Shown: one piece after another, positions 48,428 to 64,000 of the stretch
How the letters are laid out: each line of letters begins with the position of its first letter
Position numbering within the stretch: the stretch's first letter is position 1
Source: Kiritimatiellaceae bacterium
GTDB lineage: Bacteria > Verrucomicrobiota > Kiritimatiellia > Kiritimatiellales > Tichowtungiaceae
Direction: 5' to 3'
Assembly (NCBI GenBank): GCA_013141415.1
Contig: JABFQY010000003.1
Coordinates: 271,729-335,728, forward strand
DNA: 64,000 nucleotides
The notes under the pieces: generated by a model
What the model was told of the DNA's origin: nothing
The model's input: only the letters and a program-made list of their open reading frames with translations
Databases searched by the model: none
Made by a program: the position numbers and the translations under genes

Positions 48428-48635
48428 GGACGGGGTCAGTCCGATAATTTGACAATTTCGATAACCTTGATTCTGAAACCAATCGGTCATTCAAATGGTG
48501 GAGCGTGATCGCCGAGCACGCTTTACACGCGCCGAGCCGACGCGTTCCACTTAACTGGTTGGGAATTTTGTAGGCCCGCTGCCCTCAGCGGGCGATTGCG
48601 CCGGGTGAGGTCACCCGGCCTACAGATGCAAGAAG
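48428..48635. repeat. 208-bp direct repeat, left copy
   Basis: Nearly identical to 48664-48871 (one difference seen, GACGCG against GACGCA). Each copy starts GGACGGGGTCAGTCCG and contains one REPIN-like element (48570-48623) of the GTAGGCC family, in the opposite orientation to E1. No coding capacity. Confidence 0.92.
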
Positions 48636-48669
48636 TCACGGACGGGGTCACGGACGGGGTCACGGACGG
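48634..48669. repeat. 12-bp tandem repeat, three units
   Basis: GTCACGGACGGG three times in a row, joining the two 208-bp copies. The left copy starts with a single related unit (GTCACCGGACGGG). Confidence 0.9.
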
Positions 48670-48871
48670 GGTCAGTCCGATAATTTGACAATTTCGATAA
48701 CCTTGATTCTGAAACCAATCGGTCATTCAAATGGTGGAGCGTGATCGCCGAGCACGCTTTACACGCGCCGAGCCGACGCATTCCACTTAACTGGTTGGGA
48801 ATTTTGTAGGCCCGCTGCCCTCAGCGGGCGATTGCGCCGGGTGAGGTCACCCGGCCTACAGATGCAAGAAG
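48664..48871. repeat. 208-bp direct repeat, right copy
   Basis: Offset 236 bases from the left copy. Carries the second REPIN-like element (48806-48859): GTAGGCCCGCTG-ccct-CAGCGGG, spacer, CCGGGTG-aggt-CACCCGG, CCTAC. Confidence 0.92.
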
Positions 48872-49095
48872 GCGGATCGTGACCTCCACCTCAATTTTGG
48901 TTCAGCGGCAACCGCCTCCGCAAAGCTACGGCGCGCCAGAAAGATGCCGCTTCCACCTTTGTGGAGAGGAAAGCAGGAGTGTCCGGTGTCAGCGGTTTGG
49001 CGGACGAATTCGCCGATTGGGAAGATCGTGAGGATCGGACGGTTTCGTTAAATGTTAACGATTCCTTTGCAGTCGGGATATAGCCGCTGGTTAAA
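48872..49095. other. Non-coding spacer up to the attachment site
   Basis: No gene seen. It holds a degenerate second copy of the 44-bp stretch found near 48373 and a short palindrome GTTAAATGTTAAC-like sequence near 49048. Chromosomal side of the element boundary. Confidence 0.5.
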
Positions 49096-49143
49096 TGGTA
49101 CCCCGGACAGGATTCGAACCTGTGACCGTCGGATTAGAAATCT
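49096..49143 (-). pseudogene. 3' half of tRNA-Arg(TCT): attachment-site copy of the integrated element
   Basis: Read on the minus strand it gives the anticodon loop TTTCTAA (anticodon TCT), the 3' anticodon stem TCCGA, a variable loop, the T-arm ACAGG-TTCGAAT-CCTGT, the acceptor 3' strand CCGGGGT, discriminator A and CCA. Upstream of the anticodon loop only GA of the 5' stem is left, and the sequence then departs from any tRNA. A tRNA broken at the anticodon stem is the classic crossover of tyrosine integrases. The intact tRNA should lie at the other end of the element, beyond 64 kb. Confidence 0.85.
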
Positions 49144-49354
49144 ATTTTTTAGCATTCAGCCGGTGACTTTTTGTTTCAGTAAGTCTCTGACTATCAGCAA
49201 GCTATAAAAAATAACTTGATTTGTCAAGGCCATTGAAATGGTATGAAAAACGGTGCTTTTTGATGGGTGAAAGCCACACTTTTCGCCACACTTTTCAGAG
49301 TGTTTCAGCGCCGATTTTTTGGTGTCTGCTTCCCTAAATGAGCAGATGGATGAG

Positions 49355-49413: not shown

Positions 49414-49740
49414 TCAGTTGGGGATTTGAGCTTCGAGGTGTTTGGCGGATTCACCGTCGGCCCAGAGATTCAAAATCTCCAGCCGGGTCTGGTTGACCGC
49501 ATCAAACATTTGTTTGGCTTCGTCACCGGTGACGGCTTTGTCGGCCAGCATCGGGTCAATGAGCTGCACAAGCTCCGTTAAGTGAATAACGGTTTTGCGG
49601 ACTTGCGCAATCTGCGCGGCGGTCTTTTTGGACAGCATGATGCGCTGGATAGCGGCGGTGAGCACTTTGGCAACGATTTGTTCCAAGGGCAGTAACTTGA
49701 ACAGCGACAGCCCCAGTTTGATGAGCATAGTTTGTAGCAT
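49414..49740 (-). CDS. Small phage-element protein of unknown function
   Basis: 108 residues. Amphipathic N-terminal half (MLQTMLIKLGLSLFKLLPLEQIVAKVL), then a helical region. Ribosome site AAGGAGG ahead of the ATG, and the recurrent element motif about 17 bases further up. Last gene before the terminator. In position it resembles late structural or lysis accessory genes; no family recognised. Confidence 0.65.
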   Translation of the reverse strand: MLQTMLIKLGLSLFKLLPLEQIVAKVLTAAIQRIMLSKKTAAQIAQVRKTVIHLTELVQLIDPMLADKAVTGDEAKQMFDAVNQTRLEILNLWADGESAKHLEAQIPN

Positions 49741-49820: not shown

Positions 49821-50033
49821 TCAGTGCAAAAATGAGGCAATGGTTTTCAGCACCGTGAGCAAGCCTTGCGGGTTGGTGGAGAGAAAAACGACCAGCGCCG
49901 TCAAAAGAACGAGGCTCCATTTTTCGAGTTTGGTGACGCGTCCGTTGGTTTTGCTGGCCTGCGCGTGGATGGCTTCGAGCTTTTCATCAATGCGGTCGAA
50001 GCGTTGCTGGCAGCCGTCGGGCAGATTACACAT
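49821..50033 (-). CDS. Holin-like/XhlA-like small membrane protein
   Basis: 70 residues from MCNLPDGC. A helical, charged N-terminal part (QQRFDRIDEKLEAIHAQASK) is followed by one membrane helix (WSLVLLTALVVFLSTN) and a short tail. This layout matches XhlA/holin-type phage lysis proteins. A longer start at 50066 is possible. No endolysin gene is visible beside it. A 22-base stretch near its 3' end recurs at 58328-58349 with two mismatches. Confidence 0.6.
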   Translation of the reverse strand: MCNLPDGCQQRFDRIDEKLEAIHAQASKTNGRVTKLEKWSLVLLTALVVFLSTNPQGLLTVLKTIASFLH

Positions 50034-50104
50034 TGGCGATTTCCGATTCATGATTTCCGATTTCAATTAAGAGAAGCGGCGCGCCCGGCGGTCACGCCCT
50101 ACCC

Positions 50105-50701
50105 TCAAGGAATGATTGCGGTGATAAGGCCGTTGGAAATGACCAGGGTGTTGCCGGCCTGAATAACGCGATTGGTGGTGATACCGGTTGTGCGCAACAG
50201 ATAGCGCCCGTCGGCATATCCTTTATTTACGATTCCCAAGGCATCTGTGGGATTTTCGGTGACGTGCCACTTTGCCCCTGCTGATCCGGTAAGAGTGCCT
50301 GTTTCAAAATCAATGGTGGTGCCGTATCCAAGATGCATAAGGGTGTTTGGCGAAACCAGAAGGCCGTCAGCGGGCACCCCAAACAGTAATGCGTCGCTTT
50401 GCGATGTTGAAAATTGCAGTCCGTCCTGAAAACTGAGCGTTTTAAAATAGCCATGATGATCTTCACTGTCCTTGGCGTAGATTTGAAGTGCGCCATTGGT
50501 TGCAGTGAGGCTTTGGGCAAACTTTAGGGGTGCGGTCATCTGGCGGGAGCCGTCGGTGTAAACGGCCTGCGGGTCGGAGACGTGGATCTCCAATGCTTGG
50601 ATACGCTGGCCGTCGAGGATCCACTGCTGTGCCTGCGCGGAGCTGCCGAGCAAAAGGGCGACAACAAGGGTCGCCCGTACATTGGAGAGGATAGCTTTCA
50701 T
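50105..50701 (-). CDS. Exported protein of the phage element
   Basis: 198 residues with a clear signal peptide (KAILSNVRATLVVALLLGSSAQAQQ). The rest is beta-rich with repeated short turns (TNGALQIYAKD, TGTLTGSAG, GNTLVISNGLITAIIP), reminiscent of fibre or adhesin domains. A Sec signal is unusual for a virion structural protein, so it may instead alter the host surface during infection or lysogeny. Ends one base ahead of the next gene's stop region; part of the late operon. Confidence 0.65.
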   Translation of the reverse strand: MKAILSNVRATLVVALLLGSSAQAQQWILDGQRIQALEIHVSDPQAVYTDGSRQMTAPLKFAQSLTATNGALQIYAKDSEDHHGYFKTLSFQDGLQFSTSQSDALLFGVPADGLLVSPNTLMHLGYGTTIDFETGTLTGSAGAKWHVTENPTDALGIVNKGYADGRYLLRTTGITTNRVIQAGNTLVISNGLITAIIP

Positions 50702-51085
50702 TTATTCGCCCTTTCGGATGATTTCAACGGTGCCGTTGGTGATGGTGCTGGTGATGTTCAAGGAATCGTTTTCGTTAAAGGGAATGTCGGCTTCCGGAAC
50801 CCAGACGGCGTGCTGATTGTTGGATAGTGTGCACCCCGTTAGAAGAAAGGCTGTTGAGCCGGTGCGGCGTTCAACGGTGATCGTGCCGGATGCCGGGGCG
50901 GCAAACCGGAAGAGCAACGCAACGGGCACCCATGTGGAGCGTTTCTGGGTGTTGGTGATGGCTACGGTGCCGGAGTTGAGGGAATGGGTGGACGCAATGC
51001 CTGCGGCGAAGGCAGCGTTGCCGACAAGCAAAAGCGCCGCCAAGACCATAGACTTTAGGCTGTAGGCTTTAGGTTTTTGTTTCAT
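50702..51085 (-). CDS. Second exported protein of the phage element
   Basis: 127 residues from MKQKPKAYSLKS, with a signal peptide (MVLAALLLVGNAAFAAG). The mature part is a short beta-sandwich-like domain (SGTVAITNTQKRSTWVPVALLF, SGTITVERRTG). It abuts the 198-residue gene and overlaps the gene upstream by 4 bases (ATGA). The upstream extension of this frame is arginine-rich noise and was dropped. Unknown function. Confidence 0.65.
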   Translation of the reverse strand: MKQKPKAYSLKSMVLAALLLVGNAAFAAGIASTHSLNSGTVAITNTQKRSTWVPVALLFRFAAPASGTITVERRTGSTAFLLTGCTLSNNQHAVWVPEADIPFNENDSLNITSTITNGTVEIIRKGE

Positions 51086-51477
51086 TGGGTTGCTCCTTTG
51101 TATGAAGGGGAAGCGATGGAACCGTCGAGGGTGGCGGGAATGGCGCCCGTCCAGATACCGCGCAGGAATACGTCGGCGCGAATCGCGGCGGCGTTTTCCG
51201 ATTCGGACATGGTGAGGCCGATTTCTTTTTTGAGCTCGAAGAGAATGGTGGTCTGCGCATAGCGCAAGCACGATTCGGGAAGAGCGGTCGCCCTGTCATC
51301 GGAAAGAGGCAGTCCGTTGGCCTGAATTGCGGAACGGAATTCGGCGGCGGTCTGCTGAATGATGGCGGCCAGACGGCCCTGCTTCTGCGGGTTGTCGAGC
51401 AGCCATTGCCGGTAAGCGGCCAGCAAAGGAGCCGACATAACGGACTCAACAAATTCAACTGACAGCAGGAAATACAT
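51082..51477 (-). CDS. Possible head-completion or connector protein
   Basis: 131 residues, or 118 from the ATG at 51438. Helical N-terminal part (AAYRQWLLDNPQKQGRLAAIIQQTAAEFRSAIQANG) and a conserved-looking tail (RADVFLRGIWTGAIP). Size and place directly after the capsid gene fit a head-tail connector or neck protein, but no family is recognised. Coupled to the exported protein by a 4-base overlap. Confidence 0.5.
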   Translation of the reverse strand: MYFLLSVEFVESVMSAPLLAAYRQWLLDNPQKQGRLAAIIQQTAAEFRSAIQANGLPLSDDRATALPESCLRYAQTTILFELKKEIGLTMSESENAAAIRADVFLRGIWTGAIPATLDGSIASPSYKGATQ

Positions 51478-51633: not shown

Positions 51634-52569
51634 TTAAGCAACGTTGATGCGCTTGGCGGCAGCCGAGTTGGTGACCTGCACGTCTTCTGACCAGTCGAAT
51701 TTGGCGATTTCGACACGTCCGTCGTCGCGCATGTATGAACTGGGAACCATGAAGCGGTTCATCAGGCGGAACGTTTTCATGAAGCTCGGATCGCGGCGGG
51801 TCGGTTGCGCCTTGCGGGCGAAAACCAGCACGGTGCTATCCAGCAGGAATTTCACATCCTCGGTAACGCCTTCAGGGGAGTCGTCGAAGACCATGTAGCT
51901 GGTGCGGACTTCGGGCGAGCCGACAAAAAGATCGCCCGCATTGGCCTGCGTCGGGACAGCAAGGCCGACGCCGGTCTTAGAACCGGAGCCGACCACAAAG
52001 CGTCCGCGGACTTTGGCCTGATTTTTGAAAATATTCCAAGCACTGGCACCGAACAGCACACCGACGTTCATCAGCGAGCCGTATTTGCAGGCTTTGATGA
52101 CATCGAGGATGGTGTCGTCAATGTCGGCAACCGGATCGGAGGCATCGTTCCAAGTGGCATTGGTGCCGGGGCCGATGGCTTCGACCGCGAGGTCAATGAC
52201 CGCTTTTTCGTGAGCGAGCGCCGCGACTTCGGCAACGGCTACCGCGCCTTCGCGGAGCATGTTTTCGAGTCCTTCGGCTTCGAGCTGCTCGAGGTTATCC
52301 ACGGGATAGTCGAGCGCATGAGGTTCGCAGTTGAAGGTGGCATCGGACACCTCGAAGCGCAGTTCGGATGCGCGGCCGCCCAGCGTCCGAAGGGTCTTCG
52401 GAATGTGGAAGCGGTTTTTCTCGGTGTACTTCTTGAACCGTCCGGTTGAAGTCGGGACTTCAATGGTCGGCGCGATAAAATCCGCGACGGGCATGATGGC
52501 ACTCTGGGCGGCGCCCTGGGCGAATTCGCGAAGCATGGGGCTGGCACTGATTTCGGTTAGACGGGACAT
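51634..52569 (-). CDS. Major capsid (coat) protein
   Basis: 311 residues. Called from its order after protease/scaffold and decoration genes and from its layout: a flexible N-terminus with FIAPTIEVPTSTGRFKKY, a long helix (EQLEAEGLENMLREGAVAVAEVAALAHEKAVI) and the central VGVLFGASAWNIFKNQ segment typical of coat proteins. It is not similar to Mu gpT. Ribosome site AAAGGAG ahead of the ATG. Confidence 0.75.
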   Translation of the reverse strand: MSRLTEISASPMLREFAQGAAQSAIMPVADFIAPTIEVPTSTGRFKKYTEKNRFHIPKTLRTLGGRASELRFEVSDATFNCEPHALDYPVDNLEQLEAEGLENMLREGAVAVAEVAALAHEKAVIDLAVEAIGPGTNATWNDASDPVADIDDTILDVIKACKYGSLMNVGVLFGASAWNIFKNQAKVRGRFVVGSGSKTGVGLAVPTQANAGDLFVGSPEVRTSYMVFDDSPEGVTEDVKFLLDSTVLVFARKAQPTRRDPSFMKTFRLMNRFMVPSSYMRDDGRVEIAKFDWSEDVQVTNSAAAKRINVA

Positions 52570-52647: not shown

Positions 52648-53070
52648 TTAGGCAACAGTGATGAGGCCGAGGTTGGCGGGACGGACAAGGATGAGTTGGC
52701 CGCTGATGCCTTTTGCTTCGGCGATACCGATGGCGCGGTATGTTCCGGCAGTGGCTGGCAGTGCGCAGACTTTGCCGGGCTGTCCTGTGACAGACGGATT
52801 GGCAATGACCAGCGTGTCGCCGGGATTGCAGGTTCCAACGAGCGGAAGCCGGACGTTGCGGTCGGGCGTGAGCGGATGGAAGTCGCCGTTTTCACCGGAC
52901 GGCGCGCCTGCAAGCACGACGTAGAGCGCGGGTGCGGTGAGTGAAGCGGGCAGAATCATCTTCGGCACTCCGCCGGAATGGCTGAGGACAGCGAGATGAT
53001 CTGCGTGGGCAGTTAAATCTGCGCCACAAGGCATGGATACGGAACCGGTCTGTACGTTGGTCTGACTCAT
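52648..53070 (-). CDS. DUF2190-like capsid decoration protein
   Basis: 140 residues from MSQTNVQTG. Small beta-rich protein (GDTLVIANPSVTGQPGKVCALPATAGTYRAIGIAEAKGISGQLILV) with the pattern of DUF2190 capsid cement proteins, which lie between protease and capsid genes in many phages, as here. A ribosome site AAAGGA lies upstream. Confidence 0.7.
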   Translation of the reverse strand: MSQTNVQTGSVSMPCGADLTAHADHLAVLSHSGGVPKMILPASLTAPALYVVLAGAPSGENGDFHPLTPDRNVRLPLVGTCNPGDTLVIANPSVTGQPGKVCALPATAGTYRAIGIAEAKGISGQLILVRPANLGLITVA

Positions 53071-53115
53071 TTTATTTTTCCTTTCAGGGGGCACCCACAC
53101 GGGATGCCCTTACGG

Positions 53116-53634
53116 TTAGTTTGAGAGTTCCTTTTCAGCGCGACGGAAAGCCTCGGTGTAAGAAACGCGCTCGGTCTTCAGGATTTCAGCAGCGCGGTTG
53201 CGGATTTTGACGGCCTGAGAGTCGGCCTCGGGGCGGGCATTGCGGTTATGCGTTGCCTGCACTTTTGAATCGCGGTTGTGTAACGGCTTCGAAGAAGCCG
53301 GGGTTCGCAGTTCAGGGTTTGCAGTTTGGGGGTTGGGCAACTTCAGGTTTTTGAAGACCGCTTCCGTCAGGGTGCGATTTTCAATGAACTGCGCACGGAC
53401 GGCGTCGCGGTTTTCGATGTGCGCGGCGTGGGCGGTGAGAAAGGCGTCGGCATCTGCTTCGAGTTGCGCATTCTGGAAAGTGGCAAGCTGGGTTTCGGCA
53501 GACTCGGCGCGATTGAGCAGCGCGGCGACCTCGGCGGGCGGGGTCATGTTTTCAATGGCGGTGAGGATGGCGCCCTCCGCTGTATCGGCGGGCAGATTCA
53601 GTTTGTTGAGCAAGGCATCAATAATCGCTTTCAT
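53116..53634 (-). CDS. Nested scaffold protein (gpZ-like) from internal start
   Basis: 172 residues sharing frame and stop with the protease. AGGAG lies six bases ahead of the internal ATG (MKAIIDALLNKLNLPADT), and recurrent motif b lies about 60 bases upstream, inside the protease coding region. Both suggest independent expression of the scaffold. Confidence 0.6.
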   Translation of the reverse strand: MKAIIDALLNKLNLPADTAEGAILTAIENMTPPAEVAALLNRAESAETQLATFQNAQLEADADAFLTAHAAHIENRDAVRAQFIENRTLTEAVFKNLKLPNPQTANPELRTPASSKPLHNRDSKVQATHNRNARPEADSQAVKIRNRAAEILKTERVSYTEAFRRAEKELSN

Positions 53635-54234
53635 GGTTTTCTCCTGTTTGGGAGGGCAGCTACGAGAGCGGCCCGTACAATTTCGGTCTTCATCTAAAGG
53701 GGTAAAATCAAACTGGGCCCGATTGGATAGCGGCAGGATGCCCTTCAGATTCGGGTCGTTAGTGACGGCGGCGTTAAGCAGGCGAACAGGACGGAAGCGG
53801 TTGTCGCCGAGGTCTTCGCAGTCAGTTTTGGCCCAAACGGGGGAAAGAAAGCGGTAGCGCCCGCCTTTGACTGCGGCTTCGCCGATGTCGGACCAGCGGA
53901 TGTGGGCAAAAAGCCCGGCGGGGCTTTTCCCAGTTATAAGTTCTGAGTTCTGAGTTATCAGTTCAGGCTCAACAAATTTCAAATCGGTGATCCAGCCAGC
54001 GGCTTCGGAGCGTTTTTCGGCATCGAGCGAAAAGTGGTCAAAATCAATGAGCAGGCCGGGGAAATTTGCGGAAGTAGCGCGGGCATTTTTAAATGCGGCA
54101 ACCATGCAGTTGCAGGCTTCGGCGTCAATGACCTGAACGATTCCGGCGGCGGCATGGGGAAACTCTCCAAGCGGGGCAAGCTGGTGCCAGCCGTCGGCAG
54201 GCATTTCGAAATTGCGGTTGAGTATTAGGTTCAT
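53116..54234 (-). CDS. Mu gpI-like prohead protease/scaffold
   Basis: 372 residues. The N-terminal half (about 1-190) resembles Mu-like protein I: GLLIDFDHFSLDAEKRSEAAGWITDL, AHIRWSDIGEAAVKGGRYRFLSPVW and LLNAAVTNDPNLKGI. The C-terminal half is a charged helical scaffold (ESAETQLATFQNAQLEADADAFL). Start ATG directly after recurrent motif c. As in Mu (I and Z), an internal in-frame start with a good ribosome site should make the scaffold alone. Confidence 0.82.
   Translation of the reverse strand: MNLILNRNFEMPADGWHQLAPLGEFPHAAAGIVQVIDAEACNCMVAAFKNARATSANFPGLLIDFDHFSLDAEKRSEAAGWITDLKFVEPELITQNSELITGKSPAGLFAHIRWSDIGEAAVKGGRYRFLSPVWAKTDCEDLGDNRFRPVRLLNAAVTNDPNLKGILPLSNRAQFDFTPLDEDRNCTGRSRSCPPKQEKTMKAIIDALLNKLNLPADTAEGAILTAIENMTPPAEVAALLNRAESAETQLATFQNAQLEADADAFLTAHAAHIENRDAVRAQFIENRTLTEAVFKNLKLPNPQTANPELRTPASSKPLHNRDSKVQATHNRNARPEADSQAVKIRNRAAEILKTERVSYTEAFRRAEKELSN
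53694..53716 (-). promoter_or_regulatory. Recurrent upstream motif, copy b (inside the protease gene)
   Basis: Minus strand: CCAGTTTGATTTTACCCCTT then TAG. It is coding (AQFDFTPLD) yet keeps the motif, about 60 bases ahead of the nested scaffold start. Confidence 0.6.
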
Positions 54235-54236
54235 CA

Positions 54237-54259
54237 CCTAAAAAGGTGAAATCAAACGG
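54237..54259 (-). promoter_or_regulatory. Recurrent upstream motif, copy c
   Basis: Minus strand: CCGTTTGATTTCACCTTTTT then AGG, ending two bases ahead of the protease ATG, so it also provides the ribosome site. Confidence 0.65.
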
Positions 54260-54409: not shown

Positions 54410-55570
54410 TCATTTAGCCGCTGGAATAGCGGGGGTTTTTGTCAGGGTGTAGCCGGTTTTTTCGGAAAGCTCGGCGGGATCTACGTCGAGACCGGCGGCT
54501 TTAAGGTTCACCGCATCGAGCACGACCTGTTTGGTTTCCTGAGTGAAGCCGGGTGAGAATTCAAAGTAGGCCATGACGGGCTGGCCGGGAAAGTGCTGTT
54601 GCAGAAGCGGTACATCAATGGCGTTCTGCAAGATGCCAGCCAAGGTGATGGCATCGGCTCGGGCGATCTGCAGAAAGGTTTCCTGATGGGCGGTGCCTGC
54701 CAAGGTGCCGCTACCTGGCTCGGTGAGCATGGTTAGAATGCCGCCGGTGGCGGTGATGGTGATTTGCTCGTCGATGTATTTAATCAGTTCGCGAAACGGC
54801 GGACGTCCCCCGCCTCCGGTGACGAACTTCACATCGCTGTCGTGCGGAAGAAATCCGCGACCATTGGAAAGGAGTTGTTCGGAAACCTCCTGAAACTCCT
54901 TCTGTTTTTCTTCAGAGGCGTTGGGCGGACCGACCAAGAAGATAGACGGGATGCCGTAAACCGAGATGTAGGTATCCCAGTCGGCTTGCGAAAGGTTTTT
55001 GCGTAGGTAGAGCACGCTGAGGATGCGGTCGAGTGCGGCGGTCTCGAGGATGACAAAGTTTTCGGGGTCAATGGGCGTGCCTCGCTGACAGCCGGAAACG
55101 GCACCGGCGTTGTATTCCCAGTCGCCGAAAAGTCCGTCACGAATCCAGAACCACTGTTCTACCGGCTCAAGGCGTTCAATGAGCCCGTTGGCTGACCAGT
55201 GTTTTTCAAGATGGGCAAAGCCGCGAAAGAAGCCAGTGAACAGGAAGGATACGGCTTCGCGGAAGTTGGCGATGTTGTCATAGACCATGCGGAGAAAATC
55301 GGCCTGTTCCTGCGCGCGCGAATCGTTTTGAGACTGCGAAACGATACGGACATCCCAATCGAGCGACAGCAGTGCAGCGCGACGGCGCTGAATGACGGAG
55401 TGGATCATGGCGTCGGAGCGCTCGATGTAGTAGTAGAGCCACATCAAGTCGGTGTACTGGCCGCGCTCGCCCGCTTCCTGGAAAGAAACGAGCCGCGAGA
55501 TGTTGAGGCTGCGCAACGGGTTGTTTGCGTCGCGGGTGCCGTGGTTTTTATTCAGGTAAAGGTAGCGCAT
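54410..55570 (-). CDS. Portal protein, DUF935/Mu gp29-like
   Basis: 386 residues. Family pattern: YYYIERSDAMIHSVIQRRRAALLSLDWDV near the N-terminus, FLFTGFFRGFAHLEKHWSANG, the GIPSIFLVGPPNASEEKQKEF segment and TATGGILTMLTEPGSGTLAG. Forms the dodecameric DNA entry ring of the head. It normally follows the large terminase gene directly; here the Pycsar-like operon lies between. Confidence 0.85.
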   Translation of the reverse strand: MRYLYLNKNHGTRDANNPLRSLNISRLVSFQEAGERGQYTDLMWLYYYIERSDAMIHSVIQRRRAALLSLDWDVRIVSQSQNDSRAQEQADFLRMVYDNIANFREAVSFLFTGFFRGFAHLEKHWSANGLIERLEPVEQWFWIRDGLFGDWEYNAGAVSGCQRGTPIDPENFVILETAALDRILSVLYLRKNLSQADWDTYISVYGIPSIFLVGPPNASEEKQKEFQEVSEQLLSNGRGFLPHDSDVKFVTGGGGRPPFRELIKYIDEQITITATGGILTMLTEPGSGTLAGTAHQETFLQIARADAITLAGILQNAIDVPLLQQHFPGQPVMAYFEFSPGFTQETKQVVLDAVNLKAAGLDVDPAELSEKTGYTLTKTPAIPAAK

Positions 55571-56545: not shown

Positions 56546-57241
56546 CTATAAAGACCATTTCCAATTCGACCTGTAGATCTTCATGTTGTTCATGTCGGTC
56601 CACTGTGCCTCCTCCCACATGGAGACGCCGTTGTGCTTCTTCGCGTCATCTACGAGTCTGTTGTAAACATCCGCAGTAATGCGGGATGCGTGTGTGTCTG
56701 GTAGTGAAGAAAGCTTTGCCGCATAGTTCGCCGCGCGGCCAACCCATACCAAGTCATTCGCGCCTCGTGCGCCGGTACGCGCGGCGCGCAACGTGCTTCG
56801 GTCGATGCCCACGACATGTTTCAGTTGGTACTCTTTAGAGGGGTACTGCTTTAGGAGTAGAGGATTAATGATCTCCAATCGGCACCAGTTGATCTTTAGG
56901 GCGGTTCTAGCAGCTGAAGTGTTCGGCGAGTCGCCTATGTACACAGCCATGATGCGATCCCCGTCATAGGCCGTTATGCGGCCTCCTTCACTTGAGATGA
57001 TCCTTGCGGCGCAGTAGAGAAACGCTTTGTATACTTCAGCAGCGAACTGCCATGATTCAGCGTTCACCAAGGCTGTCGAACCAGACATGTCTGCGTAAAG
57101 GACAACCGCATCTTCAAGTTTCACGGCTTCATTCGCCATGGCAACTGTGTCGGCATCTGGAACAACCCGACCATCGCGCTCAGTCCATTGTTCTCTGAAG
57201 AACTTCCCAACTTGCTCAACCAGTTCATCTTTCAGTGACAT
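56546..57241 (-). CDS. Class III nucleotide cyclase, Pycsar cyclase-like (PycC)
   Basis: 231 residues, a stand-alone class III cyclase domain. The first metal Asp is in VVLYADMSGSTALV (about residues 45-58), the second in YDGDRIMAVYIG (about 90-100); RTGARGANDLVWVGRAANYAAKL (about 155-178) holds the transition-state Asn/Arg region. Small size, absence of sensor domains and a cNMP-binding TIR effector directly upstream match the Pycsar anti-phage system, where such enzymes make cUMP or cCMP on infection. The base used cannot be told from sequence by eye. Seven bases after the effector gene. Confidence 0.82.
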   Translation of the reverse strand: MSLKDELVEQVGKFFREQWTERDGRVVPDADTVAMANEAVKLEDAVVLYADMSGSTALVNAESWQFAAEVYKAFLYCAARIISSEGGRITAYDGDRIMAVYIGDSPNTSAARTALKINWCRLEIINPLLLKQYPSKEYQLKHVVGIDRSTLRAARTGARGANDLVWVGRAANYAAKLSSLPDTHASRITADVYNRLVDDAKKHNGVSMWEEAQWTDMNNMKIYRSNWKWSL

Positions 57242-57248
57242 AGAAAAC

Positions 57249-58163
57249 CTACCTGCTTTTCATCTTCTGAATCGCGAGTGATATCTCGTCCGCTGACGTT
57301 CTGACGGCGTCTTGGGGTGAGGCTGCGGTTGGGTCGTATTTTACTACGTTGATTCCGAGAAGATCGGATGGAATCTTCACATCAATCCCCTGGGGTGTAA
57401 TGAGGAATGTTCTGTGTCGGGTAATTGCGCCCATGAACAGTCCGAGTTCAAAAACAATATTGTCCCTTGGTGCCTGTGTGGATACGCCTCGACTCGTCAC
57501 TTGGTCGTCTGCTGTGGCAACCAATGCTGCAAAGTCCGAGCATTGCACTCGTGTGGCCAAGTCTTCCATTGGAAAGTGCGAAGCACCGAATACGCCCTCG
57601 GACCACAAACTCACAACTGCCAGCTTGGGGTCAATTCGTGAGGCAAGAGCCTTGGCAATGGCGATCCCCTCGCGGGATGATCCAATGAATAGTTGAGGTG
57701 TCTCGTTGGGTGAACTGTGGAACTTGCATCGTTCGTCCAATCGTCGTACAAGCTGGATGCCAATCTGGCGCCAGAGGATTGGATGCGCGTTGGCGATGGC
57801 AACGAAGTTGGGTTCGCAAACTTGTGCGTATGTCGTTGGCTCACGGGACACCACCGTTGCTGTCCGACGTGATGCGGGGTCAACTAGGGCCATTTCGCCG
57901 ACATGTTGTCCGGCTCCTCGGGTAGCGACTTCTCTTTCATTGATGAGAATGCGGGCGCTACCACTGAACATGAAGTAGATATCGTTGTCAGAGTCGCCCT
58001 GCCGAATCAATACATCGCCAGCCGAATGACTAACGATTTTGCATGCGGGTGCCAGTGCTTGTGCGACCGGTTCGCTTCCTCGAACGAGCTGCTGTTGCAG
58101 AAGCAGATCAATCAGAATCCGTCCAGTTGTATCGGCTGCGATTCTGTCGCCTATTGATGTCAT
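57249..58163 (-). CDS. cNMP-binding/TIR-like effector, PycTIR-like
   Basis: 304 residues. Residues about 20-150 are a cyclic-nucleotide-binding domain: DVLIRQGDSDNDIYFMFSGSARI and the phosphate-binding cassette VGEMALVDPASRRTATV. Residues about 165-300 are a TIR-like predicted nucleotide-binding domain (PQLFIGSSREGIAIAKALASRI, DNIVFELGLFMGAITRHRTFLI) of the kind seen in Cap12 effectors, where a Glu cleaves NAD+; VFELGLF holds the likely catalytic Glu. Expected action: bind the cyclic pyrimidine made by the cyclase, then deplete NAD+ and stop infection. First gene of the operon. Confidence 0.83.
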   Translation of the reverse strand: MTSIGDRIAADTTGRILIDLLLQQQLVRGSEPVAQALAPACKIVSHSAGDVLIRQGDSDNDIYFMFSGSARILINEREVATRGAGQHVGEMALVDPASRRTATVVSREPTTYAQVCEPNFVAIANAHPILWRQIGIQLVRRLDERCKFHSSPNETPQLFIGSSREGIAIAKALASRIDPKLAVVSLWSEGVFGASHFPMEDLATRVQCSDFAALVATADDQVTSRGVSTQAPRDNIVFELGLFMGAITRHRTFLITPQGIDVKIPSDLLGINVVKYDPTAASPQDAVRTSADEISLAIQKMKSR

Positions 58164-58365: not shown

Positions 58366-59643
58366 TTAGCTATTTATGCTACGGGATCGTTTCGCAAAGG
58401 GAGCGAAGCGGTGTTTATGCGCAAGCGGAATCATTGAGCCGCAGGATTCGGTTTCCCAGCGGCGGTGGTTAGCGAGCGCGAGCGCCATGACGCAATCATC
58501 GTGAAAGCCTGACGGGGCGTTGTAGCTGACGTGCCCGCGCGGGGAAATTTCGTATTCGTAGCGTTGCATTTCGTTGGTGAGCACCTGCCATTCCTCCGGC
58601 CAGCTGACTTTCTGGTGTTCGACGGCCCCCATGAGGCGCTGTACCAGTTCGGCTTTCGAGATGGATGAGAATTTGAAGGGCTCAATGTTTGAATAGCGTC
58701 GGCAAAGGTCGTCGTAAATTGGATCCCCTGCCCCGGTGGCATCGAGGATCAAGCGGCCTTGCCATTTGCGCGCGAATTGCAGGATGCGGTCTTTCTGCAC
58801 CGGCCAGTTGAGCTGATTGAAGCGTTCCATTTCAAAGCAGCGGCCCGTTTTCAGGTTCATGGCAACGAGCACGGTGAAGTCGGTATGCTTGGCCACATCG
58901 CAACCGATGACCACCGGCCCGGTGCGGTCGTCGCGGGTGATTGTCTTTTCAGGAAACAGGCACGAGCTGACACCGCGAAATACTCCCGCAGAGTCTTCAA
59001 GAAACTCGGCTTCGTATTCCTGCTTGAACACATCGGCGGGCAAGGTGCGCTTAGCGTCGTCCCATTCGGTCGGCGGAAAATACGGGCTGGCATTGCTGGG
59101 GAACTTGAATGACTTGTAGGCTGTTTCTTGCGGATCGAGTCCGCGGGTGTACAGGTCAAAAAACCAGTTGCGGCCTTTGGGTGTCGAAATGAATACGGCC
59201 CAGCCTTCCGTCTGCGCGATGGTCGGCCTCAAAACGTAATTCCATACATCGAGTGGGATCACCGCCGCTTCATCTACTACAAGACCTTTGAAGCCGTACC
59301 CACGGATGTTCTCGGGATTGTCGGCAGACAAAAACCAGACACGGGAAATTTTTCCGTCCCGGCTCTCGAAATCAACCCGCGAAGGCGTCCGCCCGATAAA
59401 GCGCAGGTACCACGATTCTGCGGCGGCGATAAACGCCTCCCGCCCGCGCTCCGCCACGTTGTAGGTGGGCGCTACCCATCCGTATTCGCCGGAGTCGAGG
59501 AAGGCGCACTCGAGCAACTCTCCGGCAAGGCAGAGGGTCTTTCCGAATCGTCGTCCGGTGCAGACAATTCGAAATCGCTTATCGCGGGCATTATGAATTT
59601 CTTTTTGAGCCCAATGGGGGGTGTATTTGACAGGAGACGCCAT
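58366..59643 (-). CDS. terL: Terminase large subunit
   Basis: 425 residues. ATPase part with Walker A CTGRRFGKT and Walker B GLVVDEAA, coupling motif FISTPKG; nuclease part with VVIGCDVAKHTDFTVLV, the Asp in LILDATGAGDPI and a late HDDCVMALALA. Packages DNA into the head. Overlaps the small-terminase gene by 172 bases, a long overlap for phage genes. Its C-terminal 20 residues are basic and probably dispensable. Confidence 0.93.
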   Translation of the reverse strand: MASPVKYTPHWAQKEIHNARDKRFRIVCTGRRFGKTLCLAGELLECAFLDSGEYGWVAPTYNVAERGREAFIAAAESWYLRFIGRTPSRVDFESRDGKISRVWFLSADNPENIRGYGFKGLVVDEAAVIPLDVWNYVLRPTIAQTEGWAVFISTPKGRNWFFDLYTRGLDPQETAYKSFKFPSNASPYFPPTEWDDAKRTLPADVFKQEYEAEFLEDSAGVFRGVSSCLFPEKTITRDDRTGPVVIGCDVAKHTDFTVLVAMNLKTGRCFEMERFNQLNWPVQKDRILQFARKWQGRLILDATGAGDPIYDDLCRRYSNIEPFKFSSISKAELVQRLMGAVEHQKVSWPEEWQVLTNEMQRYEYEISPRGHVSYNAPSGFHDDCVMALALANHRRWETESCGSMIPLAHKHRFAPFAKRSRSINS

Positions 59644-59885
59644 TCTATAACTCCTTCGTGTTCGATGTTGACCGTGGCTTCTTTGGGAAGCATCGGCATG
59701 ATGATGTTGCGAAAAAACGAAACGGGGTCTTTTGTTAAGGATTCTTGCAGGCCATCCAGCAAAGCTTGCTGATTGGCATCGGACTGCAACATAAGGTCAA
59801 TGGCCTTAACGAGCTGAGTGCGTCCGCTGACTGCGCCTTTGGGCTTGCCGGCTGGGTTGCCTGATTGTCCTGGTTTAAATTGCAT
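59472..59885 (-). CDS. DUF5681-type protein, probable small terminase
   Basis: 137 residues from MQFKPGQSGNPAGKPKGA, the signature of DUF5681 proteins that stand just ahead of terL in many phages and probably recognise packaging sites. The N-terminal half fits the family; the C-terminal third lies over terL in another frame and is low complexity (ESCSSAPSSTPANTDG). TTGGAGG ahead of the ATG and recurrent motif e just upstream support this start. Confidence 0.75.
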   Translation of the reverse strand: MQFKPGQSGNPAGKPKGAVSGRTQLVKAIDLMLQSDANQQALLDGLQESLTKDPVSFFRNIIMPMLPKEATVNIEHEGVIEWRLLSNTPPIGLKKKFIMPAISDFELSAPDDDSERPSALPESCSSAPSSTPANTDG

Positions 59886-59897
59886 CGTGTCCTCCAA

Positions 59898-59920
59898 CCT
59901 AAGGAGGGAAATCAAACTAT
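59898..59920 (-). promoter_or_regulatory. Recurrent upstream motif, copy e
   Basis: Minus strand: TAGTTTGATTTCCCTCCTTA then GG, about 12 bases ahead of the small-terminase ATG. Heads the head-gene operon. Confidence 0.7.
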
Positions 59921-61552
59921 GACTGTTTCAGGATGTTTCAAATTCCCTGTAAATATCAGGAAAATACAGGAGGGGCCCCACACACACGTTGGTTTACAGG
60001 CGGACGGGTACCGAAGTAGCCATACTCGAAGACATCTTTTCCTCCGAGGCTCCGATGGGCCGAGGAGTTGCAGAGCATTCGTGAAAAAGGTGAAGCCTTG
60101 GTTTCCGATGGCTGGAATACCCTGCCCCGCAGGGGAGCGTAGCGACGACGCAACAGCGGCGGAATTTTTCCGAAGGCGGCGGCAAGGGACGCGGGAATGA
60201 TGAAGGATGAAAGATGAACTATGAAAGTGGATGGACGATTCACCGTGTGCGTTGAAGAAGATTCGCCGGCGAGGAAAGGCTGTTGCGGGTGAACGGAAGA
60301 GCTGGGCCCAGAGAAAACCCTTGGACGGTATGCCGGACTCGGGTTTTCGTCGGGCTCGGCTCTGGAGTGAATCACCCCACAACAGAGATTGGCTGAAACG
60401 CGGGGCTGGCGCGATTTCTGCCGCGACGAAGGAGCCAGCACGAAACCGTGACAGCTTTGGGGAAAAGGGGTGAGGCCGGAGGCCGAAGGGGGAAGCGGGG
60501 CGAAGCGGGGCTTCCCCCTGGGAAAGGAGTGAGGCTTTTGCACAGCAAACGCCGAGAGGAAAACCCGTCCGGAGGATGGGTTTGCTTCTTCGGTTGAGCG
60601 GGACAAGTGAAACCGTTGAGGCCATCGAGGCCCGCCGCCGTGCGAGGGCGCGAGCCGGTGCGGGCGGAGCCCTGCGAAGACGGAACGGCTGAACACAGCC
60701 GGACGGATGAGCGCGAGGCGGCCCAGACAGAACTGGTTCTGTTGAGTGAACGGGTTGAAGCAAAGCGCCAACGTGCATCGCGCACGCATAATTGATCAAT
60801 TATGCGATGTTGGCCGGTCCGCTGTATTCAGCGGTTGCGAAACCCTGCGCGTGGCCGCCGAGTTACTATCGGGGAGCAAGCCGGTGAATTCCGTTATCGC
60901 GGAACTGAACCGGTTTGCGATGACCCCTACCACCCCACGGAGTGTTGCCTGCAACAGCAGGCAGCCCGAGGGAGTCCGCCCCGAAACATGATGGGGCGCG
61001 TATTCGTGACCCATGATGTTCGGGATCAAGCGGACTGCCGAGGTAGGAGGCCCGTTCCGGCGCTGAAGCGGACACCCAAGGGCCGAGGGCGTTGCGAAGC
61101 AACGTAGGAGGCTCGCAGGGTGGAACGATGAAGAGCCGGTTCGGGCCGCACAACTACATCCCCCAAAGGGCCGCAGCCGGTTGCGAAGCAACCGTAGGCG
61201 GTCTGCATGGGGGCTTGGGGGATAAATACCACCCGCGCCGAAAAGGATTTGTGAAGCATGTTTGAAACGCCTTCACGGGAAACAACTCCGAAGGACAACA
61301 GACAAAAACCGTGAAGCGGTTCAAGCTGCGGAACAATTCCTTTTGCGCGGTTACATCCCCCCATTTGGGGGGCTTGGGGGGCGAGTGCAATGAAGTGGAT
61401 TTTGGAGACGGGCTGAATGAGGTACGAGTGAAGCCCGGTGACAAAAGACACTTGATTGCGCGAGACCATAGAGAGAAGTCGGAAAGCAGAATGATCAATA
61501 ACCAATGAACAGTGACAAACTTACAAGGGGTGAAAAAATGATAGAGAAAAAT
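59921..61552. ncRNA. Long non-coding, hairpin-rich region; candidate structured RNA
   Basis: About 1.6 kb without a convincing gene, although several frames stay open because the DNA is GC-rich. It is full of strong stems: GGGGGAAGC with GCTTCCCCC near 60500, GTTGCGAAGCAAC twice (about 61094 and 61182) each followed by GTAGG(A/C)GG, and a 22-bp perfect palindrome at 60785-60806. A unit with GTAGGAGG also follows a stem near 61042. Long ornate RNAs (GOLLD, ROOL) are known from prophages and are a possible analogy; I cannot match it to one. The transcribed strand is not clear. Confidence 0.4.
60785..60806. repeat. 22-bp perfect palindrome
   Basis: CGCATAATTGA followed by its exact reverse complement; AT-rich within a GC-rich region. 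CCAA and CATC on the left pair with GATG and TTGG on the right, extending the stem with bulges. It could be an operator, a replication or recombination site, or the tip of an RNA helix. Confidence 0.7.
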
Positions 61553-62008
61553 CTACTCGTTGGAAAGACGGCGGCGGCGCCTGGCAACTTTTTCAGGGAA
61601 CAATGTCCGCAAAATCGGACACTTCCTCAAAGCAAGCTTGTGCCGCATCTCTGCCAACTGAGACGAAGTCCCCTGCCGATCAGCAATCTCTTTGTACGAC
61701 AGGCCCTGAAACCGCCAGGCGACGATGTCGCGCTGTTCAGGGGGAAGGCGCAACAGGCTGTCAAAAAAACTCACCAAGGAGCCATAAACCAACTGTTCTG
61801 CCACTGTATCAGGCATGGCCGGGGAATCGCCGAGCGCACGCACCGGATTGCCCAAGGCAGAAGCGGGAGGGTTTTCCTCGTCCAGAGGAACAGAATAAAA
61901 CGTATCCTCGCCCAGCTTGCAACCGGAACAAGGAATCTCGTTCCAAGGTTTGGTATCGTACTCGCCACGCTTAACGGCATCGTGATGAGGACAGGAATGG
62001 CATTTCAT
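61553..62008 (-). CDS. Zinc-ribbon plus sigma-region-4-like regulator
   Basis: 151 residues from MKCHSCPHHDAVKRG. N-terminal cysteines CHSC and CSGC (about 20 residues apart) suggest a zinc ribbon; the C-terminal part reads LRLPPEQRDIVAWRFQGLSYKEIADRQGTSSQLAEMRHKLAL, a helix-turn-helix like sigma-70 region 4, ending in a basic tail (RRRRRL). No region 2 is present, so it is not a full sigma factor. A phage-encoded regulator of late genes is the likely role; the recurrent motif is a candidate target. Confidence 0.65.
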   Translation of the reverse strand: MKCHSCPHHDAVKRGEYDTKPWNEIPCSGCKLGEDTFYSVPLDEENPPASALGNPVRALGDSPAMPDTVAEQLVYGSLVSFFDSLLRLPPEQRDIVAWRFQGLSYKEIADRQGTSSQLAEMRHKLALRKCPILRTLFPEKVARRRRRLSNE

Positions 62009-62298
62009 GAATGGACTCCGGTTAAAGAGTGGCAAGGTGAGGACAGAGGACGGAGGACAGCAGACCGCAAGAAGTGGTTCCAAGGATCAGGAACGTAGTG
62101 ACAGATGACAGGAAACAATTTGAAACCGTCACCGATGAGAAGCCTGCAAATAAAGGGCGATACCGCTTATGACACTTCTTATAGTATATATAAATAATAT
62201 ATATAAGAGAGAGCGGAGCCGCGCACAGCCACATCCATAATACCGTATGGTGACGGGAAAATACTTTTTTAAGTGCAGTGTCACGCGTCAGTCTGTCA
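62009..62298. other. Gap with a strongly AT-rich tract
   Basis: No gene seen. About 62176-62208 is nearly all A and T with alternating TATATA, a possible promoter or unwinding site between helicase and regulator genes. Confidence 0.4.
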
Positions 62299-64000
62299 TT
62301 AAAAAGGTGTTGTTCCATCGCCAGTTCCTTTCGTAAGTTCCTGAACATCAATACTCCAGATGCGACGAGCGCCCGTGCGCGTTTGTGACAGCGAATAGTT
62401 TTGCGATGCCAACTTGGATAACTCCCGACCTACCTTGTCCGGTGTGTATTTGGCCGCAATGCCGGCAAGACCGTCGTCGTCGTTGAGCATGGCGCTGAGA
62501 AGTTCGGTTGCTGATCCCGTCCAAACATCGGAAACCTGTCCCTCGAAAAATTTCAATAAGACCTCAAGGAACGAATAGGCACTGGATGAATGACGGGCCG
62601 CTTCAAATAGCGACGCCTCACAGTACGTTTGAACACCGTAACGGGAATCGCCAAGGACTTTGTCCGGCGGCGTCCAGTTGAGAAGCCAGCGTAAGAAAAA
62701 GGGTAATTCCGCCTGAATGATTTCCGCGACGTTACGGGGAAAAGTGAAGGAATCCCGATCAGCTACACGAAACAGATTGATTTTGTCCCGGTTCGATAAA
62801 TCCACGTCCGGCAAAATACGAATAGACTCCGGATCGGTATTACACGTCACTACCACTCGGCCATTCCACTCGATCAACTTGTCCACCCGGTACTTCTCGC
62901 GGACTGAAAAAGTACGATTGGCCGCCATTTTTTTAATGAGCGCTGAAAAGCGCAGATGGGTTTTGGTATCGGTCAACGGAACCACATCGTCTACTGCCCA
63001 GACAGCGCTGTTAAACAAGTGACTGTTGAAATTATCCTCACCGGACAAAAAGTTACTGGCGTCGATATGACCACCGAAAATTCGTGAAAGTATTGCGGTA
63101 GAGAGCAGTGTCTTTCCGGTATTCGGGGCACCGGCAAAAAATGAAGCCTGACCGGGAAGCATACAACCATCGAGCGCAGAGGCATACCAGCGACGAAGCC
63201 ATGCGTAAAAATAGTCCAACTGCTCAACCGGATCGAATAGCGTTTGAAAATACGAACTCAACCACGGGAAATCACGGGAAGGATCAACCTGTGAATCCTC
63301 CGAAGGTTGGAACATTTCGACGGTAGATGTGTTTAACACCCGCTGGCCGTTGACGATGACGATGCCTTTGGGGCGGTGAATCAGAGGTGCGGCACAGGCA
63401 ATGTATTGCTGTTTTCGGATACGATTAAGGGCCAAAACAACCTCACTGGCAGCAGAACCGCGAGGAACTGTAGAACTAAGGCCGCGCTCTGCCTGTAGGT
63501 CATTCGCCATGTCCGATTTGTTTGTGGCTTGCCACTGCCCGTTTGAAAGTTGCGTCCAGTATTCACGCCCGTCAAAATAGACTTCAGTGACCGCACCACC
63601 GACCCGGTCGGCTTCAAACTGATTTACAAACTGTCTTCCAAGGATTGCTGACCACGGGACAAAAGCCTGCCCCCCTGTAAAGCATTGCATGCCAGATTCA
63701 CGAATGACGGCGGCGGTTTGATTATCCGCGGATGAATCCCAAAAACGAACCCCACGAACACCGACAGCGAACTCACCTTGCCAGCGACCGGGATACTGCT
63801 TTTCAACTTCGGCAGCAACGCGGTCAATCGGGATCGGATCACCTAGCTTGTTCCATGCGTAGTTGTGGGAGGATTCAATCGCCCACTGCATGATGAAGGC
63901 TGACGGGATTACATCGTCCGAAAGATGAACCCAGTCGGTACCAGATTCATAGTATTTACAGGGATCCACAAGAGCTTCTTCATCGAGTCCGACCAGAATC
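62299..64000 (-). CDS. SF3/D5-like helicase-primase protein (N-terminus beyond window)
   Basis: 567 residues visible; the frame stays open to the window edge (ILVGLDEEALVDP precedes the GTG at 63969), so the start lies outside. The helicase core shows Walker A FFAGAPNTGKTLLSTAIL, Walker B-like AVWAVDDVVPL, SALIKKMAANRTFSVREKY and motif C VVVTCNTDPESIRILP. It resembles DUF5906/D5-type replication helicases of phages and satellites. A primase domain, if present, would be in the missing part. Its C-terminal 100 residues may be a winged helix (SKLASQNYSLSQTRTGARRIWSI). Confidence 0.85.
   Translation of the reverse strand, partial: ILVGLDEEALVDPCKYYESGTDWVHLSDDVIPSAFIMQWAIESSHNYAWNKLGDPIPIDRVAAEVEKQYPGRWQGEFAVGVRGVRFWDSSADNQTAAVIRESGMQCFTGGQAFVPWSAILGRQFVNQFEADRVGGAVTEVYFDGREYWTQLSNGQWQATNKSDMANDLQAERGLSSTVPRGSAASEVVLALNRIRKQQYIACAAPLIHRPKGIVIVNGQRVLNTSTVEMFQPSEDSQVDPSRDFPWLSSYFQTLFDPVEQLDYFYAWLRRWYASALDGCMLPGQASFFAGAPNTGKTLLSTAILSRIFGGHIDASNFLSGEDNFNSHLFNSAVWAVDDVVPLTDTKTHLRFSALIKKMAANRTFSVREKYRVDKLIEWNGRVVVTCNTDPESIRILPDVDLSNRDKINLFRVADRDSFTFPRNVAEIIQAELPFFLRWLLNWTPPDKVLGDSRYGVQTYCEASLFEAARHSSSAYSFLEVLLKFFEGQVSDVWTGSATELLSAMLNDDDGLAGIAAKYTPDKVGRELSKLASQNYSLSQTRTGARRIWSIDVQELTKGTGDGTTPF

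Follow-up and report, generated by a model that had tools for sequence, protein, structure and literature searches.

According to the accessible part of their description, cf-PICIs encode capsid, protease, portal, connector and terminase, and obtain their tails from a helper (PMC10690885). Set against that account, the element reported here likewise encodes a capsid, a protease, a portal, a large terminase and, by predicted fold only, a connector. It differs from cf-PICIs in its Mu-like head proteins, its PVC hosts, element sizes of ~34–52 kb with large cargo, and a family-A DNA polymerase of its own; its small terminase is represented only by a candidate, p59472, and no HNH nuclease family was seen among the Pfam matches for the element. 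The Streptomyces satellites MulchRoom and MiniFlayer also have their own capsid and packaging genes and, in the text available, are described as lacking primases and as having known virulent helpers (PMC10690885), whereas this element has replication genes and no helper was found in the two-model search given below. Tycheposons, as far as the accessible source presents them, are likewise bordered by tRNA, with a tyrosine recombinase and large variable cargo (PMC10872708); in the present element the constant part is a core of head, packaging and replication genes. In the P2/P4 defence hotspots, too, phages and satellites carry anti-phage systems in their variable slots, according to the portion of the source available (PMC9122126), although hosts and phage family are different here and the relatives also bear polysaccharide enzymes. 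Mu-headed tailed phages of PVC bacteria share a related capsid, portal and I protein, but these sister loci carry tail-family genes past the capsid gene.

A literature search, which covered few subscription papers, found no paper on such elements in Kiritimatiellota. The evidence on integration and gene content is strong, and the element is placed among capsid-encoding, satellite-like elements as a new variant that would depend on a helper. It is interpreted here as one of a group of head-making, tail-lacking integrative elements of Kiritimatiellota and other PVC bacteria that probably work like tail-borrowing, capsid-forming satellites.

Integration into tRNA-Arg(TCT)

The element occupies C3:320823–361592 (40,770 bp including both cores), and its G+C content of 51% differs little from that of the flanks (53% and 52%). 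Its left part lies in the window, the whole 64,000-nucleotide stretch of a Kiritimatiellaceae genome that was analysed; the remainder, to the right of the window, reaches into L006. The ends are marked by the following features.

49095–49142, minus strand: attachment core with the displaced 3′ half of tRNA-Arg(TCT), the element's left end; 48-bp exact repeat of L006 11546–11593
49273–49283, plus strand: candidate integrase arm-type site GCCACACTTTT, left arm copy 1; exact 11-mer
49285–49295, plus strand: candidate arm-type site GCCACACTTTT, left arm copy 2; exact 11-mer
L006 11461–11471: candidate arm-type site GCCACACTTTT, third exact copy, 75 bp from the right core

The exact 48-bp core occurs once within the window. 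Its tRNA-derived portion, 49096–49142 on the minus strand, corresponds to nt 31–77 of the tRNA, to which the core adds one base, and comprises the end of the anticodon stem, the anticodon TCT, the T arm, the acceptor strand and CCA. The first-pass annotation had described this content, with a break in the anticodon stem, and its reading agrees with nt 31–77; of the interval it gave, 49096–49143, the start is exact for the tRNA and the end lies one base beyond the true end at 49142. ARAGORN called no tRNA in the window, because only half a tRNA is present there.

A whole-genome search located the second core copy at C3:361542–361592, inside an intact tRNA-Arg(TCT) on the minus strand (L006 11547–11623; C3:361546–361622), to the right of the window and 40.7 kb from the displaced half. 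The intact tRNA anticipated at the far end is thus in place, beyond the window, and the identical stretch expected to be about 45 bp long measures 48 bp. The tyrosine integrase foreseen beside it is encoded at L006 10041–11477 on the minus strand (Pfam Phage_integrase PF00589, 1.3e-14). Its reading frame is intact; the likely ATG at L006 11393 gives a protein of 450 aa, and the start lies ~70–150 bp from the tRNA, depending on the start codon chosen. That a tRNA half is repeated exactly over 48 bp, with an integrase next to the intact copy, is not due to chance, and it establishes the displaced half as the element boundary that the annotation had proposed. With a repeat at both ends, one of them in an intact tRNA, and an adjoining integrase, the assignment as a tRNA-integrating tyrosine-recombinase element is well supported. 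The displaced half itself is an ordinary attachment site.

Used as a query against its own genome, tRNA-Arg(TCT) matched eight places: the intact tRNA, the displaced half and six others (tRNA-Arg TCG, CCT and ACG, tRNA-Lys, tRNA-His, and one without a callable tRNA). The anticodon arm gave a single exact match, the intact tRNA-Arg(TCT); a further 13 places differ from it by two mismatches, of which one is the displaced half and another six, on inspection, hold no tRNA. Because neither search gave a second, the target is the sole intact tRNA-Arg(TCT) found in this genome, rated 95.5% complete. A separate 40-bp match to the tRNA 5′ half (nt 4–43, 85%) at G000:C3:573227–573266 (L180), with no ARAGORN call, is perhaps another broken tRNA. 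In the left flank, one short relative sequence matches both 48429–48455 and 48665–48691, 236 bp apart, which suggests a duplication.

The 11-mer GCCACACTTTT has three copies in the window, L005 and L006 together, all near the element's two ends, where ~0.03 would be expected in the element; the distances between the left core and the two left-arm copies are 131 and 143 bp. Such end-proximal 11-bp sites fit the arm sites of lambda-type integration, and we take them to be bound by the integrase. G013, whose integrase is 96% identical, carries GCCACACTTTT in both arms, G009b also has it, and G009d has a near variant; by eye, the motif is AACTTCTGTTT on both sides of G009c and AAACTACGGGTTT on the single side seen of G009a. 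Judged on these sequences, the arm motif appears to vary along with the integrase. Seven stretches in IMG/VR fit the pattern, none with a gene of the element.

The 40.7-kb element would have entered the only tRNA-Arg(TCT) gene found, with its integrase presumably held by the 11-bp arm sites flanking the core. The tRNA 3′ half carried by the element would then have recombined with the chromosomal tRNA, strand exchange probably falling inside the anticodon arm, so that the tRNA adjoining the integrase stayed whole and the old 3′ half was displaced to window 49095.

Two same-genus genomes show use of the tRNA-Arg(TCT) site by relatives. In G013, contig C21 has an integrase beside an intact tRNA-Arg(TCT), and C36 has a displaced half (nt 31–77) next to a homologue of the small end gene p49414 (95%); in G002 a displaced half, again nt 31–77, adjoins a p49414 homologue (85%). 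A tRNA-Arg half in G007 also starts at nt 31. The site looks empty in G008 (rated 97% complete), where tRNA-Arg(TCT) is intact and no displaced half was seen; the flank on the tRNA-upstream side alone matches (305 bp, 86%). An empty site with both flanks conserved was not found. In relatives the tRNA is not flanked by RecN and the right-flank hydrolase, which were tried as synteny anchors. Short terminase and portal remnants were observed in G013 (L160 4390–6423), on the C36 contig that bears the displaced half. Weaker tRNA-Arg 3′ halves (82–84%) occur in G006 and G013 (L164 7974–9437; L165 258–302), the one in G006 adjoined by a different integrase (29% identity); other elements use this kind of site.

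Gene content of the element

The genes of the element within the window are listed below.

49414–49740, minus strand: small end gene p49414, 108 aa; homologues adjoin displaced tRNA-Arg halves in G013 and G002
49821–50066, minus strand: short protein p49821 with one hydrophobic segment, putatively holin-like; matched in 4/4 G009 elements
50105–50701, minus strand: fibre-like protein (by eye) with a signal-peptide-like N-terminus; no PHROG match
50702–51085, minus strand: beta-sandwich protein p50702 with a signal-peptide-like N-terminus; homologues in other clade loci
51082–51477, minus strand: predicted neck or head-tail adaptor; structure model and VIA
51634–52569, minus strand: major head protein; phrog_1005, 2.9e-27
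52648–53100, minus strand: conserved head-module protein, putatively decoration-like; conserved position
53116–54237, minus strand: Mu-like I protein, head protease/scaffold; PF10123, 2.4e-23; phrog_328, 2.7e-26
54410–55570, minus strand: Mu-like portal; PF06074, 6.8e-48; phrog_113
56546–57241, minus strand: Pycsar cyclase PycC; PDLC00766, 6.1e-100
57249–58163, minus strand: Pycsar effector PycTIR (cNMP-binding and TIR); PDLC02371, 2.7e-88; PF10137, PF00027
58366–59643, minus strand: terminase large subunit; PF03237, 4.2e-12; PF17289, 8.2e-07
59472–59915, minus strand: p59472, small protein before the terminase, candidate small subunit; phrog_4114, no assigned function
61553–62083, minus strand: sigma-70 region-4-like regulator; PF08281, 1.8e-09
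62299–63969, minus strand: primase/helicase-like protein (DUF5906); PF19263, 5.5e-08; phrog_1156 DNA primase, 7.5e-09

Beyond the window the element continues with a family-A DNA polymerase (DNA polymerase A), a DUF2800/exonuclease-family protein, an ERCC4-like nuclease and an excisionase-like HTH protein. These are followed by SspA, H, G, F, D, C and B in that order and, after SspB, by a circularly permuted YpsA-like protein, a staphylococcal-nuclease-like protein, the integrase and the tRNA. Two defence systems are present. In Pycsar, PycC adjoins the cNMP-binding effector (PADLOC and Pfam); for SspABCD-SspFGH, PADLOC models match all seven proteins (SspA, B, C, D, F, G and H), SspA scoring nearly equally for the DndA model and the full reading frame of SspG comprising 511 aa. 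The stretch at window 59916–61552, which separates the terminase module from the sigma-like gene, is GC-rich, is without a convincing gene, and has blocks conserved at the same place in 4/4 G009 elements; it is possibly an origin, a packaging site or an RNA.

The head genes are under strong purifying selection, with dN/dS of 0.07–0.09 for the capsid, 0.10–0.11 for the portal and 0.07–0.12 for the terminase (rough values, against two to four relatives, with several dS >1). The ratio is 0.39 for the neck gene where dS is unsaturated, and 0.27–0.38 for p50702.

The product of 51082–51477 is predicted to be the neck adaptor or connector. Its structure model, built from 18 sequences (pLDDT 86.8), matched Mu neck chains in VIA with Z-scores of 11.1, 10.8 and 10.7, followed by connector, neck and adaptor chains of other phages, the first unrelated row appearing at Z 4.3; Foldseek alone gave no significant match to the model (best E 0.58). 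For p50702, Foldseek returned mixed beta-sandwich matches, with nucleoplasmin-like chains first and a phage cement protein at rank 23. No function was assigned to it. By eye, a signal-peptide-like N-terminus is present in 12 of 15 aligned p50702 homologues and absent from those of G009a, b and d.

Related elements and their cargo

The same-genus genome G009, a complete chromosome in a single 3.88-Mb contig, holds four close relatives (a–d). The core, from p49821 through the HTH gene, is matched in each of them; the exception is that G009d has no match to the polymerase and primase-like genes, in place of which stands an unmatched 765-aa ORF. Their integrases lie near tRNA-Val(CAC), tRNA-Val(GAC), tRNA-Pro(CGG) and tRNA-Ala(GGC). 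Repeats of a tRNA 3′ half, starting at tRNA offset 31–32, bound three of the four: 27 + 23 bp with one mismatch between in G009b (~34 kb), 19 bp in G009c (~52 kb) and 45 bp in G009d (~48.5 kb). No such repeat or far end was found for G009a. In G009a–c the core is reversed relative to the integrase end, as compared with G009d and the element itself, so cargo either adjoins the integrase or sits at the far end.

Kiritimatiellota are known for large sets of sulfatases. Four sulfatases were found among 100 G009 ORFs scanned and were placed by eye, two in G009c and two in G009d, where lyase, glycosidase and transporter families also occur; in two of the four G009 elements, both bounded by tRNA repeats, a head and packaging module thus stands next to genes for sulfatase-like proteins, glycosidases and transporters. 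Similar ORFs follow the core of G009a by eye, with the element end not found, and the cargo of G009b is a type III restriction-modification system with a helicase. The Pycsar and Ssp proteins had no match across the nine relative regions compared. If the elements move, phage-like particles would be a vehicle for polysaccharide-degradation islands and paired defence systems.

Tail genes and life style

A PHROG scan of 20 of the element's own genes, a set that leaves the terminase, defence and accessory genes outside, gave no match to a tail tube, tape measure or baseplate. The clade used for comparison consists of 50 capsids, chosen by eye from a midpoint-rooted FastTree tree of 115 sequences; its node has a support of 0.684, and the element's own group of 11 capsids has a support of 1.0. 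Across 21 clade loci (141 of 142 ORFs used), no tail family is among the 25 of 45 matched PHROGs listed, whereas in the sister control (14 loci, 94 of 95 ORFs) the 25 of 44 listed include head-tail adaptor, baseplate and tape-measure families. The ORFs left out are a 2266-aa antisense ORF (L050) and a 2212-aa ORF (L105). The scan of 100 of the 115 non-core ORFs of G009, which omits four ORFs that straddle a locus end and 11 from G009a located past C1:717000, gave no tube, tape measure or baseplate among 25 of 57 PHROGs listed; the tail-labelled ones among them are fibre or 'tail protein' families, matched in G009a and G009b by one protein each in the post-neck region.

Post-capsid proteins of the sister loci match one another: 77 of 94 match another of 26 sister loci, a count inflated by the near-duplicate contigs L111/L112, L132/L133 and L067/L068. 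Only one of the 94 matches one of 51 clade sequences, and does so upstream of that capsid gene. In five clade contigs an integrase relative (~29–63% identity over the matched parts) begins 1.7–3.7 kb past the capsid gene, and in G009a–c it does so 2.9–5.1 kb past it. Possibly a tail is encoded that has diverged too far for PHROGs or Pfam. Ten post-capsid proteins of the distant Mu-headed relative in G008 gave one fibre-type and one weak DNA-pilot match, so not every sister locus has recognised tail genes; nor do these matches mark this relative as a helper. With tailed sister loci to compare against a clade that encodes heads but lacks any recognised tail, the question of how capsid-forming satellites arose can be tested in a further phylum.

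Integration is well supported; a satellite life style with helper dependence is inferred. The element carries genes for what would be its own heads, neck adaptor, packaging motor, DNA polymerase and primase-like protein. Most probably it leaves the cell only when a tailed phage, either co-resident or infecting, supplies tails to its heads, in the manner of capsid-forming satellites. Cargo in the variable slots may pay for the element's stay; it consists of Pycsar and Ssp phosphorothioation defence in this element and of sulfated-polysaccharide enzymes or restriction-modification in its sisters. Element sizes of ~34–52 kb with ~90% identical capsids fit poorly with uniform headful packaging.

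There is a small but real chance that the element is instead a complete temperate virus, building a short tail or spike from unrecognised post-neck proteins and needing no helper. Fibre-type and beta-sandwich proteins do follow the neck gene, replication genes are present, and a resident helper is not evident, PF10145 and PF04865 each matching 0/6 genus genomes in what is, with two models only, a weak search. However, no tube- or tape-measure-like gene was recognised, and signal-peptide-like N-termini on post-neck proteins are odd for cytoplasmic virion assembly.

Decay of an ordinary tailed prophage, with tail genes lost and defence genes inserted later, is unlikely. The core without a recognised tail recurs in four elements of one genome and at further PVC loci; the purifying selection on the head genes, the intact integrase frame, the candidate arm sites and the core repeat likewise speak against decay, even though distant relatives carry tail genes after the capsid gene and all that G013:C36 retains of a copy is fragments of the terminase and portal genes.

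Signal-peptide-like N-termini, scored by a home-made rule, occur in 48 of 138 ORFs downstream as against 6 of 169 upstream in 37 clade loci, and in 9 of 137 downstream as against 15 of 186 upstream in 24 sister loci. It is conceivable, and quite improbable, that the phage tail has been replaced, heads being finished at the envelope by exported adsorption proteins to give a virion without a true tail and helper-free transfer. If so, tail-replacement virions would carry islands for defence and polysaccharide degradation from one PVC bacterium to another. It is very hard to credit that the host retains the element as a packaging system that is domesticated or resembles a gene transfer agent, as might be suggested by the lack of a tail set alongside the head and packaging genes, the several copies in one chromosome and the metabolic cargo. 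The elements have their own integrases next to five different tRNA genes, they carry replication genes, and their occurrence is patchy (any portal relative in 15/58 genomes, own included), which points to a mobile element.

Distribution of capsid relatives

At 1e-5, tblastn gave no match to the capsid protein among 50,697 phage records. Capsid relatives were located in 53 genome loci, 37 of them labelled as PVC-group bacteria, 13 only as uncultured bacterium and three as other groups; these three may be binning errors. G019 is of the same order, Kiritimatiellales, as the window's genome; the Pontiellaceae belong to this order within Kiritimatiellota. In a few relatives a head or packaging gene is interrupted: the terminase gene of G025 is split by ~1.4 kb (L032 500–3107), and the I-protein matches of G048 and G054 are split by ~4 kb (L033 8076–12595; L035 2020–6861), which, judging from the sequences, may represent inserted elements or inteins.
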